Shown here piece by piece: positions 3,106 through 6,913 of a DNA stretch of 32,130 nt. A program made the position numbers and the translations under genes. Source of the stretch: Sphingomonadales bacterium (GTDB lineage: Bacteria; Pseudomonadota; Alphaproteobacteria; SMXS01); NCBI GenBank assembly GCA_022844405.1, contig JALHLV010000037.1, forward strand, positions 1-32,130, written 5' to 3'. Below the pieces are notes generated by a model. It was not told the DNA's origin. It did not search any database and was given only the letters and a program-made list of their open reading frames with translations. The first letter of the stretch is position 1. Each line of letters begins with the position of its first letter.

Positions 3106-3750
3106 ATGAGCCTGGACGAACAGCTGGAGCAACTTCGTGCGCGTGCGGCAACCCTGCCCGAAGACCGGCGCCGGGTGATGGAAGCGGCGACGAGGGAGTT
3201 GGCGGCGTCCGGAACGGCTGAACGGGCGCTCAAGGTCGGCGACGTTGTGCCGGATTTCGAGTTGCCCAATCACAAGGGCGAACCGGTTCGTTTCGCCGAT
3301 CTGGTGCAGCAAGGGCCGGTCGTCATCAATTTCTATCGGGGCGGCTGGTGCCCGTACTGCAATCTGGAGATGCGGGCGCTGCAGGAGAAGCTGCCCGAGA
3401 TCGTCGATCTTGGCGCGCGGCTGGTCGCCGTCTCTCCCGAACTGCCAGACGCCGCCATGAGCACCGCCGAAAAGAACGCCATCAGCTTCGATGTGCTGAG
3501 CGACCTCGGCAATAGGGTCGCGGCGGCCTTCGGCCTGGTCTTCACGCTGCCGCCGGCGTTGCAGGCGCTTTACAAGACCTTCGGCCTCGATCTGGAAGAA
3601 TCCAACGGCGACGACAGCATGACCCTGCCGATCCCGGCCACATACGTGGTCGGCGCCGACCGGCGGATCATCCATGCCCATGTGGATGCCGACTATTCCA
3701 GGCGGATGGAACCTGCCGAGGTGGTGGATGCGCTGAGGCGGCGGGCATGA
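3106..3750 (+). CDS. Peroxiredoxin-like protein, AhpC/TSA family
   Basis: A 214-residue thioredoxin-fold peroxiredoxin expected to reduce peroxides in the cytoplasm. The core begins near residue 44 with VGDVVPDFELPN. The active site is in NFYRGGWCPYCNLEMRAL, with Cys82 and Cys85 forming a CxxC after Trp81, a variant typical of one AhpC/TSA-like subfamily. The N-terminal 40 residues are helical and charged, and there is no signal peptide. The frame is open back to 2842, through the tRNA tail. I placed the start at ATG 3106 because ACGGAGGA lies 7 bases upstream. The stop overlaps the next start by four bases (ATGA), so the pair is translated together. Confidence 0.9.
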   Translation: MSLDEQLEQLRARAATLPEDRRRVMEAATRELAASGTAERALKVGDVVPDFELPNHKGEPVRFADLVQQGPVVINFYRGGWCPYCNLEMRALQEKLPEIVDLGARLVAVSPELPDAAMSTAEKNAISFDVLSDLGNRVAAAFGLVFTLPPALQALYKTFGLDLEESNGDDSMTLPIPATYVVGADRRIIHAHVDADYSRRMEPAEVVDALRRRA

Positions 3751-4397
3751 GCCTGTCGGTGGATGTCTACTGGTCGTTCCGCAGCCCCTACTCGTATCTG
3801 GCGACCACGCGCCTCGTGGAGATGCGGCGAACCTATCAGGTCGACATCCTGTTCCGGCCCGTCTACCCGCTCGCGGTACGCAAGACCGACTTCTTCGCGA
3901 CCGTGAATCCGGCCTGGGTCAAGTACGTGCAGCGCGACGCGCCCCGGTTGGCCGAGTTTCTGGGCTTGCCCTTCCGGTGGCCGAAGCCCGATCCGATCGT
4001 GCAGGACATGACGACGCTGCGCGTCGCGGACGAGCAGCCCTATATTCGCCGGCTGACCCGCATGGGCCAGGCGGCGGCCGACCGGGGCTGCGGCATTGAA
4101 TTCGCCCACGCGGTGTCGTCGCTGCTGTGGGGCGGCACCCGCGGCTGGAACGAGGGCGATCATCTGCGCGACGCCGTCGCGAGCGTTGGACTGGCCATCG
4201 ATGAGCTGGACGCGGCCATCGAAGCAGACCCGGAAGCATATGACACGCGCATCGCCGCCAACCAGGCCGCGCTCGAGGCGGCGGGGCATTGGGGCGTGCC
4301 GACCATGGTGTTCGAGGGTGAGCCGTTCTTCGGCCAGGACAGGCTCGACGTGCTCGAATGGCGGCTCAGGCAGCGCGGACTCGCGGCCCGGGCATGA
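3747..4397 (+). CDS. 2-hydroxychromene-2-carboxylate isomerase-like DsbA-family protein
   Basis: A 216-residue thioredoxin-fold protein of the kappa-GST/HCCA isomerase group. The N-terminus has FRSPYSYLA (residues 11-19), in which a serine (Ser13) stands where DsbA has its first active-site cysteine. The C-terminal [21 protein letters not shown] is the family's cis-proline loop and closing helix. Characterised relatives use glutathione to isomerise a naphthalene-pathway intermediate. No other naphthalene genes are nearby, so the true substrate is unknown. It is coupled to the peroxiredoxin by a 4-base overlap, which suggests a joint thiol-dependent detoxification role. The 3' end overlaps the convergent doxX gene by 32 bases. 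Confidence 0.85.
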
Positions 4398-4869
4398 ACC
4401 TCCCGCGGATGAGATGGTCGAGGGATAGCGAGCCCGGCCCCCGGAACAGGATGAACCCGAGCGCGGCGGCCCATCCAAGATGGGTCATCCAGGCTTCCGG
4501 ATAGACGAATGCCTGGATGACGGCGGTCATTCCCAGCAGGGCGGCGGCGCTGAGGCGGGACGCCAGGCCGACGAGCAGCAGCAGCGGAAACAGGTGCTCG
4601 GCGTAGGTAGCCAGGTGCGCCGCGACGGGCGCGGGAATCAGCGGCAGGGCATATTCGTGCTCGAACAAGAAGTATGTGCTGTCCGTCACGGTCAGCACGC
4701 CCTCGACCTTGGTGCGCCCCGACAGCAGGAACACGGCGGCGACGAACAGCCGCGCGGGCGTCGCCAGCACGGTTTCGAGGGAAACCCGGTCCAGGGCGTG
4801 GATCGAGCAAACGGCCAGCTGACGGAGTCGGCTCCCCGGTCGCGTCGTCGTGGCGGCGAGGTCGGTCAT
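4366..4869 (-). CDS. bufD: DoxX-family membrane protein of bufferin operon
   Basis: A 167-residue integral membrane protein with about four hydrophobic segments. These begin near residues 36 ([17 protein letters not shown]), 84, 106 and 130. The [16 protein letters not shown] opening and the [21 protein letters not shown] segment are typical of DoxX. It is the last gene of the operon and its ATG overlaps the bufC stop by four bases. DoxX proteins commonly accompany DUF2282-DUF692-DUF2063 clusters and are thought to help electron transfer or peptide handling at the membrane; the exact role is not settled. The symbol is given from operon position and should be treated as provisional. Confidence 0.82.
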
Positions 4870-5645
4870 GTGCGGGTCTCCGGATGGGCGTGGCTGAAGG
4901 TACCGCCAGCGATCAACGTGGCGAGCTCCGCCGGCAGGGAGGCTGCTCCGGACAGGTTGGCCGCAACATTGATCGCCTGGCCGAGCGGCAGGCCATCATC
5001 AAGCGCGACGAGAACGGCGAAACCGGCCTCGGTTACCCGGCGGACGCTCACATCGGCATGAGGACGGATGATCAGCAGACGTTCGACACCGTCGGCAACC
5101 ATCATCGGCGCTGGGTCGTCATGGCGGTTTGCCTCCCAGATGTCGAGCACGCCGAACCCCGTGGAGAACAGGCGGGCCGAGGGATGGAGCTTCAGCCCGA
5201 GCGCGTCGCCGTGGCGCTCAGCCAGCGCATGGAGGGCGCCGGCGTCCAGCGGTACCGCCTCGGCGGCGTGGAAGGCATCACGGTGGAGGAATTCGAGCGC
5301 CGCCACATCGGGAAGGTAAGGCAGCGATGCGGCCGGCTCGAACGCGCGAAGGAACCCGGGAAACTCCCGCCCGAACCCGATCAGCGTCCCCGCACGGCTG
5401 GGATGCCCCTCGATGAAACAGCCTGCGGCGAACCGGAAAAAGGCGTCACCGACGATCCGGCGCGTCGCCGGGAACACGTCGGTAAGCGCATCGGCGAACC
5501 GGCTCCGGACGTTGTTGCGATAGATGGCGAGGGACGCGGCCGGCGGAATGCCCGGCGCCACGAGGTCTTCCAAGGCGTCCTGCCCGGATGCGCTGGCCCG
5601 GAGACAGGCGCTGAACCGGTCTTGCAGCTTAGCCAGCGAGAGCAT
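4866..5645 (-). CDS. bufC: DUF2063 protein, partner of the MNIO enzyme
   Basis: A 259-residue protein with the DUF2063 N-terminal domain. The landmarks are [20 protein letters not shown] (about residues 41-60), then [28 protein letters not shown] and [15 protein letters not shown]. Family members act as the companion protein that delivers the precursor peptide to the DUF692 oxidase. The C-terminal half is a less conserved beta-rich domain. The start at 5645 overlaps the end of bufB by 17 bases and the stop overlaps the DoxX gene by four, so the operon is tightly coupled. No signal peptide is seen, consistent with modification in the cytoplasm before export. Confidence 0.92.
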
Positions 5646-6516
5646 GAGACCGCTCCCGGGCGTGCATGATCGTATCGGCGCGGTTCGCTTCTGCCAGCAA
5701 CACCGGCAGGTCGGGCACGTTGGAATCCCACTCGATCAGTGTCGGGCGCGGCCCGATTCGCCGGACCGTCTCCCGGTACAACATCCAGACTTCCTCGCGG
5801 ACGCGGCTGCCGTGGTCGTCGATGAGGATCTCCCGGCCGGCGAACTCGATCTCGGCATGGCCGGCGAGGTGGATTTCCCCGACCAGGCCGGCGGGGATCG
5901 CCGCAAGCCAGACGCGGGGATCGAAGCCGTGGTTCCGGGCGGAAACGTGCACGTTGTTGATGTCGAGAAGCAGGAGACAGCCGCTCCGGAGCGCCAGTTC
6001 GACCATGAAGTCGTGTTCGGGAATGGCGGACCAGGCGAAGCGCAGGTAGCTCGACGGGTTCTCCATCAGCACCTGGCGGCCGAGCGCGTCCTGCATCTGG
6101 GCCACATGGCCGGCGAGCACGGCGAGGCTCTCCTCGGTATAGGGCAGCGGCAGCAGGTCGTGGTGGGCAATGCCGGCATGCGCCGACCAGGCGACATGCT
6201 CGGACACCATGGCCGGGGCATAGTGATCGACCAGCGATTGCCAGCGGGCGAGATGGTCCCGGTCAAGCGGCCCGGCCCCGCCGAGCGAGAGGCCGACGCC
6301 ATGAAACGACAGCGGGTAGTGGTCCGCCAGCGCGTCCAGGTAACGGTGGGGCGGCCCGCCGTCGCCCATGTAATTCTCCGGATGGACCTCAAGGAACGAC
6401 AGGGATGGCCGGGTCTCCAGCAGCGCCCGGTAGTGCGGCGCCTTGAGTCCGATGCCGGCCGTGGCCGGCACCGGGCCCATGCCACGCGAAAACGAGGTTT
6501 CGTGGCTCGGCGCCAT
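5629..6516 (-). CDS. bufB: DUF692 multinuclear non-heme iron oxidase (bufferin maturase)
   Basis: A 295-residue TIM-barrel enzyme of the MNIO (DUF692, MbnB-like) family, which uses two or three iron ions and oxygen to rebuild cysteine side chains in ribosomal peptides. Family motifs appear in order: GIGLKAPHY (21-29), FLEVHPENYM (41-50), SFHGVGLSLGG (70-80), SEHVAW (105-110), DLLPLPYT (120-127), MENPSSYL (151-158), LLDINNVHV (183-191), EIHLAGH (214-220), IDDHG (232-236) and IEWD (261-264). The metal-binding His, Glu, Asp and Asn residues expected in these motifs are all present. It starts 3 bases after the bufA stop. Known relatives convert two central cysteines of bufferins to 5-thiooxazoles; the neighbour's sequence suggests the same here. 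Confidence 0.95.
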   Translation of the reverse strand: MAPSHETSFSRGMGPVPATAGIGLKAPHYRALLETRPSLSFLEVHPENYMGDGGPPHRYLDALADHYPLSFHGVGLSLGGAGPLDRDHLARWQSLVDHYAPAMVSEHVAWSAHAGIAHHDLLPLPYTEESLAVLAGHVAQMQDALGRQVLMENPSSYLRFAWSAIPEHDFMVELALRSGCLLLLDINNVHVSARNHGFDPRVWLAAIPAGLVGEIHLAGHAEIEFAGREILIDDHGSRVREEVWMLYRETVRRIGPRPTLIEWDSNVPDLPVLLAEANRADTIMHARERSHALAG

Positions 6517-6519
6517 GTA

Positions 6520-6822
6520 TCAGGCTTTCGGCACGTGCGCGCTGGATGGCTCGAGGCTGCCCATGCCGTGCGGAGTCTTGATCGTCGCGCAGGTGCCCTT
6601 GGGCACCAGCTTCCAGGCGTTCGACTGGTAGTCGATCTTGGACGAGCCGGCGCAGCTGGTGCCTTCGCCGGCCTTGCAGTCGTTCTTGCCGGCCATGGCG
6701 ACGCCGTAGCATTTCTCCATGTCGGCCTTGTCGGCGGCCATCGCCGATGAGACGCCACCCAGCGAAATGGCCAGTGCGGCGGCGGCAAGCAACGTCGAGC
6801 GCGAAGTGGTCTTGGCGGTCAT
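6520..6822 (-). CDS. bufA: DUF2282 bufferin precursor peptide
   Basis: A 100-residue exported peptide. Residues 1-30 are a signal peptide with a hydrophobic core [14 protein letters not shown] and cleavage site AMAA/DK. The mature part carries four cysteines (38, 49, 57, 78) in the family frame [29 protein letters not shown] and WKLVPKGTC. In characterised bufferins the two central cysteines become thiooxazoles that bind copper and the outer two form a disulfide; this is family knowledge, not seen here. The RBS AGGGAGA lies 8 bases before the ATG. It is the first gene of the bufABCD-type operon and sits about 60 bases below an ECF-type promoter. Confidence 0.95.
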
Positions 6823-6887
6823 AGGAAGAGTCTCCCTTGGTGAGGTGGAAATCGCCGCCGGTATCGAAGCACCGCCGACACTACCTA

Positions 6888-6913
6888 TTCGCGCGACAGC
6901 ATGCGGCGGTTAC
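6888..6913 (-). promoter_or_regulatory. ECF sigma-factor promoter of bufferin operon (GTAACC-N16-CGAA)
   Basis: On the minus strand GTAACC (6913-6908) is followed by exactly 16 bases and then CGAA (6891-6888). As I recall, this is the promoter pattern reported for the heavy-metal ECF sigma factor SigF of Caulobacter, whose regulon includes a DUF2282 gene. Transcription would begin near 6880, giving a leader of roughly 58 bases before the bufA ATG. Neither a sigF gene nor its membrane anti-sigma partner is in this window, so the regulator must lie elsewhere. Confidence 0.72.

Follow-up and report, generated by a model that had tools for sequence, protein, structure and literature searches.

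A complete bufferin-1 operon in a Sphingomonadales genome as a probable arm of the sigma-F/NrsF (ECF16) regulon

A contig from a Sphingomonadales bacterium carries, on its minus strand, four closely packed genes for a small cysteine-bearing precursor, an MNIO enzyme, a DUF2063 protein and a DoxX-family membrane protein, with no sigma factor gene adjoining them. The locus raises the question of what such an operon is for and of what switches it on. The window analysed here is the whole of this contig (C37; 32,130 bases), in a genome of 3.78 Mb in 41 contigs. On the sequence evidence below, the four genes are a complete bufferin-1 operon, bufABCD, a standard member of an already described family, and we consider it highly probable that the operon belongs, as one arm, to an envelope-stress regulon under sigma-F/NrsF (ECF16), for which we propose a mechanism. 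The operon is one more bufferin-1 operon beside the thousands known; its regulatory context is the useful addition, since an operon without an adjoining sigma factor can still look like the target of a sigma-F encoded in trans.

The first gene, bufA (6822-6520), encodes a bufferin-1 precursor of 100 amino acids with cysteines at positions 38, 49, 57 and 78, which matches PF10048 (DUF2282) with 92 bits (cut-off 22.4, E 2.2e-26). After a gap of 3 bases follows bufB (6516-5629; 295 amino acids), the gene of the MNIO (formerly DUF692) enzyme, which overlaps bufC (5645-4866; 259 amino acids) by 17 bases; bufC in turn overlaps bufD (4869-4366; 167 amino acids) by 4 bases. BufB reaches 375.8 bits (cut-off 310, E 1e-112) against the NCBIfam model NF050167.1 (MNIO_BufB, "MNIO family bufferin maturase") and 343 bits (E 1.2e-102) against PF05114 (MbnB_TglH_ChrH, DUF692), and it stays below the cut-offs of the HvfB, ApyH, MbnB and ChrH models. 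It aligns over most of its length with the solved MNIO structure 3BWW and keeps the DINN motif and the D-x-H pair (D233, H235), which by our own residue matching would correspond to N175, D242 and H244, residues essential in HvfB (PMC13419390). BufB is predicted to oxidise the central cysteines of BufA.

BufC, the DUF2063-RRE partner of the MNIO enzyme (PME type 1), matches PF09836 (DUF2063) with 76.3 bits (E 2.2e-21) over residues 7-99 of 259, and a search of the Protein Data Bank (PDB) sequences with it returned chance-level matches only (best E 0.2). Its AlphaFold2 model has a mean predicted local distance difference test score (pLDDT) of 92.4, and a Foldseek search with this model had its best hits in TglHI (entry 8hi7, chain A; 1.3e-5) and NGO1945 (3dee, 4.7e-4). 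Chain A of 8hi7 is taken as TglI because, for this enzyme, 8hci chain D is the one given as DUF692. The modelled fold of BufC thus resembles that of MNIO partner proteins. For the BufC alignment, 40 of 70 candidates were used together with the window protein. BufD has hydrophobic segments and matches PF07681 (DoxX) with 54.1 bits (cut-off 23.6, E 2.5e-14).

Since gene content, gene order and the curated BufB model agree, the locus is read as a complete bufferin-1 operon, and its layout is that of the core operon described for bufferins (PMC12452194). An earlier note on this DNA had placed four genes of these families here, led by a four-cysteine precursor of the DUF2282 family, and the Pfam and NCBIfam scores, far beyond chance, bear it out. 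The range 4366-6913 that it gave for the operon holds for the genes, but a promoter box begins at its last position, 6913, and that text made no mention of it. Codon comparison gave ratios of nonsynonymous to synonymous substitution rates (dN/dS) of 0.17-0.31 with G001 and of 0.15-0.32 with G002, two genomes of the same genus, so all four genes are under purifying selection. The operon seems to stand alone in its genome: no second one was found above the Pfam cut-off, the sole other PF10048 signal scored 13.1 bits (below 22.4), and there is one PF05114 gene.

What switches the operon on is suggested by the region upstream of bufA. At 6913-6888 on the minus strand lies the box GTAACCGCCGCATGCTGTCGCGCGAA, an exact match to the sigma-F search consensus of Caulobacter crescentus, GTAACC-N16-CGAA; its last base lies 66 bases ahead of the bufA start codon (A of the ATG). 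The window holds this one match, against 0.02 expected in shuffles. In C. crescentus both DUF2282 operons have similar sequences upstream, and for CC3254 a start site was mapped at -61 (PMC3511200). Seven matches with the exact 16-base spacer occur in the genome, three of them directly before a fitting gene (bufA, a DUF1223 gene and a cytochrome b561 gene). Among the other four, three have no frame of at least 60 amino acids starting within 150 bases and one has an unassigned frame of 111 amino acids. Location inside a frame does not discriminate here, because all seven are overlapped by some long frame.

The comparison across genomes was made in a set of 60 genomes holding 28 precursor copies, the window's own included. 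The box was scored between 300 bases before the chosen bufA start and 60 bases inside it, with a spacer of 15-17 bases, and NrsF was scored in the same genomes, some of which are incomplete, so that NrsF may have been missed in a few of them. The box precedes 8 of the 10 bufA copies in genomes with NrsF versus none of the 18 in genomes without it (one-sided Fisher test, p 1.4e-5; p 1.2e-4 when the same-genus copies are reduced to one), and the backwards pattern precedes none of the 28. Among precursor relatives fetched separately (103 confirmed in the genome scan, the best 80 of which were kept), 40 of 80 have the box and 1 of 80 the backwards pattern. The box is also kept in the three same-genus copies. 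We regard the box upstream of bufA as very probably a real sigma-F promoter.

The 18 bufA copies in genomes in which no NrsF was found (for example at the loci L008, L010, L014 and L015) all lack the box, and another regulator therefore probably controls the bufferins of these genomes.

The only NrsF gene found in the genome at E 0.01 or better lies on contig C36, where an extracytoplasmic function (ECF) sigma factor gene (Sigma70_r2, r4_2) is followed, with a 4-base overlap, by nrsF (PF06532, 68.4 bits). Upstream of the sigma gene stand the genes of a molybdopterin oxidoreductase and a cytochrome b561, a pair that we take to be msrPQ-like, and msrA and msrB face away. Two facing sigma-F boxes (L047 2915-3012, on C36) lie between msrA-msrB and the cytochrome b561, oxidoreductase, sigma and nrsF genes. 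NrsF was found in five of the six same-genus relatives, and the block with boxes in both directions recurs in four of these five; in the fifth, G002, a box precedes sigma-nrsF and no msr block was found within the 13 kb taken.

On contig C20 a DUF1223 gene has a box just before its start (C20:69347-69322, minus strand), and its product shows, by eye, a signal-like start and a CxxC motif. In the same 60 genomes the box precedes DUF1223 in 6 of 9 places in NrsF-bearing genomes versus 0 of 16 in genomes without NrsF (one-sided p 4.7e-4; p 0.013 when one copy stands for the genus; these 25 places are drawn from 26 listed matches, a second fragment of an already counted gene being left out), so DUF1223 is probably a sigma-F target. 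It does not stand in the regulon table of PMC3511200, as far as that text was available, and our literature searches found no report of it as a sigma-F target; the two papers found to contain the word DUF1223 deal, by their titles, with different topics. The box may thus be used for finding regulon partners, and DUF1223 is suggested as a likely functional partner when the periplasm is under copper or thiol stress.

These results fit a scheme in which excess copper or a related thiol stress would be sensed by the membrane anti-sigma factor NrsF, so that the sigma factor, encoded with it on C36, would be freed, read the box at 6913-6888 and drive transcription of bufABCD. BufC would hold the precursor while BufB oxidised Cys49 and Cys57 to thiooxazoles, Cys38 and Cys78 would form a disulfide, and the peptide would be exported through Sec and chelate periplasmic copper. 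The same sigma factor would drive the msrAB and msrPQ-like repair genes and probably the gene of the secreted DUF1223 protein. The thiooxazole chemistry, the disulfide (PMC12452194), export, copper binding and the inducer are carried over in this scheme from studied members. As to export, the N-terminus of BufA has a basic start, a hydrophobic stretch at about residues 9-27 and an AMA-ADK motif, judged by hydropathy and by eye; a Sec-type signal is predicted, with probable cleavage after Ala29. As to copper, both cell types of C. crescentus, in either medium, upregulate the sigma-F regulon in its presence, homologues of DUF2282, DUF692, DoxX and MsrPQ among its members (for two values this holds only at a more lenient cut-off), and a sigF::Tn5 mutant has a severe growth defect in copper (PMC8224329).

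Several observations weigh against this assignment to a copper-responsive sigma-F regulon. Genome-wide, the loosely spaced box pattern gives 15 matches versus 15 for the backwards control; the box alone therefore proves little, and the comparison across genomes had to decide. Two of the 10 bufA copies in NrsF-bearing genomes lack the box. The operon seems dispensable in the genus, since four of six same-genus genomes gave no precursor match. The structure model of BufA is poor (pLDDT 69.9). In the available text of PMC3511200, sigF and the two MNIO genes of C. crescentus are dispensable for survival of chromium or cadmium, and the gig system of Cupriavidus metallidurans ranks last of five systems for copper resistance (PMC10304878). 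Finally, the NrsF of this genome (L047 5075-5713, plus strand, C36) lacks one of the two cysteines that matter in C. crescentus (C131 and C181): the first conserved cysteine is kept, and a histidine stands in the column fitting the second. These columns would correspond to C131 and C181 by their 50-residue spacing, although a one-column shift of the alignment is possible. The first cysteine is present in 15 of 16 NrsF copies (the sixteenth was cut short in extraction), whereas the second position holds cysteine in 5 of 16 and histidine in 9 of 16; with cysteine there in so few copies, the second cysteine does not define the family, and the Pfam assignment to NrsF stands. An extra cysteine lies in the segment before the first in 9 of 16 copies, and another is restricted to the six same-genus copies. 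The histidine variant and the extra cysteine occur in the same-genus genomes with NrsF and in three copies outside the genus (the second copy of G013, G023 and G050).

The most serious rival explanation accepts a bufferin-type operon and assigns its main job to another metal or oxidant, such as gold, chromium, cadmium or hypochlorite, with the peptide acting as a thiol or metal sink. The sigma-F regulon of C. crescentus is induced by chromium and cadmium (PMC3511200), the ECF16 system of Brucella melitensis responds to hypochlorite (PMC8315932), and in the present genome the operon has the box in common with methionine-sulfoxide repair genes. The C. crescentus sigF mutant, however, is described as copper-sensitive and not chromium- or cadmium-sensitive in the available text of PMC8224329, and the bufferins characterised so far bind copper (PMC12452194). 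We therefore hold this explanation to be unlikely, though worth keeping in sight.

According to a second rival, the exported precursor would carry another MNIO modification, an oxazolone-thioamide or a new one, in place of thiooxazoles. MNIO enzymes have several chemistries, oxazolin was first assigned an oxazolone-thioamide, and the authors of PMC13097082 state that more work is needed on thiooxazole as the sole product of MNIO-PME1 clusters. On the other hand, fontiphorin, oxazolin and gonophorin, whose clusters have a DUF2063 partner, carry 5-thiooxazole (PMC13097082), and BufB lies above the bufferin equivalog cut-off and reaches only 51.4 bits against the MbnB model (cut-off 325), which makes this rival quite improbable. 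Least credible of all, and hardly to be expected, is a chance match of the sigma-F box with the operon under another copper regulator: the genome-wide count and the box-less copies in genomes without NrsF, for which other control is probable, speak for it, but the box is kept in the genus and tracks NrsF across genomes.

Within 4 kb after the precursor gene, 67 of the 80 fetched relatives have a BufB relative, 72 have BufC, 70 have DoxX and 64 have the full set; for some the contig is too short to decide. In one record, titled uncultured Vibrio (L098 4998-8145), about 2.1 kb lie between the precursor gene and the start of the DUF2063 gene, which leaves room for an inserted gene between bufB and bufC. 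Within the genus the precursor is present in two of six relatives (G001 and G002), and no match was found in the other four, two of which are 100% complete and two 78% and 84% complete. The DSBA-like gene that neighbours bufD in the window adjoins it in both G001 and G002 as well, and the G001 contig ends inside this gene. In G005 the 19 kb taken contain an AhpC/DSBA pair and no buf gene; G006 likewise has the DSBA-like gene and no buf gene in the stretch taken. From this gene content, the buf operon looks like an accessory element, present or absent at one site, with the sigma-F and msr core steadier in the genus. We tentatively extend this to a view, possible rather than probable, in which methionine-sulfoxide repair is the steadier core of a sigma-F/NrsF regulon in this genus and the bufferin one of its accessory effectors. 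This regulon would have a secreted, CxxC-bearing, thioredoxin-like DUF1223 protein as a further target, and its variant NrsF could bind metal directly.

In the window the 3' end of bufD overlaps the convergent DSBA-like gene (3747-4397, plus strand) by 32 bases (4366-4397). A single Rfam match above the gathering score was obtained in the window, a tRNA, and ARAGORN places a tRNA-Ala at 2805-2880.

The precursor and its tail deserve separate comment. Past residue 22, four cysteines are present in 76 of the 80 fetched relatives, five in two and three in two. For the precursor alignment 62 of the 80 passed the filter, which removed near-duplicates, proteins longer than 125 amino acids and those with fewer than four cysteines, and 44 of the 62 were used together with the window protein; because of that filter no claim of cysteine conservation is drawn from this alignment. 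BufA gave no match among the PDB sequences up to E 1, and its model was too poor for a fold search. The earlier note had also pointed to an extra histidine pair in the tail after Cys78 that could add metal contacts. The histidines are indeed there, but the tail sequence given was incorrect, since the true tail has 22 residues and that version had dropped the residues AT, and the supposed pair consists of two single histidines ten positions apart.

Among the 80 fetched relatives, TPHG occurs in 41 and a 10-residue tail motif in 38, and the tail has no histidine in 24, one in 55 and two in 1, the nearest relative. In the 28 copies of the 60-genome set, 19 have none, six have one and three have two; of these three, one is the window copy, one belongs to G001, a genome of the same genus and the nearest relative just mentioned, and one to G013, a more distant genome whose tail histidines are placed differently, with the first in VGHG and not in PHGM. 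The second histidine of the window tail is present in the operon of G001 (AHLPKA) and replaced by arginine in that of G002 (ARVPSA). In the tails compared, the first histidine is thus a trait of the family, whereas the second lacks conservation; the histidine counts in relatives leave an added metal site in the BufA tail unsupported, without disproving it.

Among known systems, the captophorins of the EGKCG type (oxazolin HvfA and fontiphorin FonA) likewise combine an MNIO enzyme with a DUF2063 partner, and the thiooxazoles established for them (PMC13097082) would be expected here too. Unlike the window BufA, their precursors have EGKCG repeats, and BufC and BufD score far below the cut-offs of the HvfC and HvfX models (27.3 versus 142 bits and 41.2 versus 80 bits, respectively). 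Another is gigPABT of C. metallidurans, which is copper-induced, lies near an ECF sigma gene and encodes GigP, a four-cysteine peptide with a leader, the DUF2063 protein GigB and the DoxX-like membrane protein GigT (PMC10304878); from its position, GigA would be the MNIO enzyme. Its sigma gene, rpoQ, is divergent next door, whereas the sigma factor of the window operon is encoded on another contig. A similar difference separates the window from C. crescentus/vibrioides, where the sigF-nrsF tags (CC3252-CC3253) adjoin the operon. C. crescentus also has two DUF2282 operons, against a single copy in the present genome, in which the sigma-nrsF pair lies on the other contig beside the msr genes. 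In its genes, however, the bufferin-1 operon of C. crescentus/vibrioides (CC3254-CC3257, CCNA_03363-03366) is closely alike, with DUF2282, DUF692, DUF2063 and DoxX in the same order, and it is sigma-F dependent, with promoters described as very similar to the sigF promoter and the consensus GTAACC-N16-CGAA (PMC3511200) that the box upstream of bufA matches exactly.

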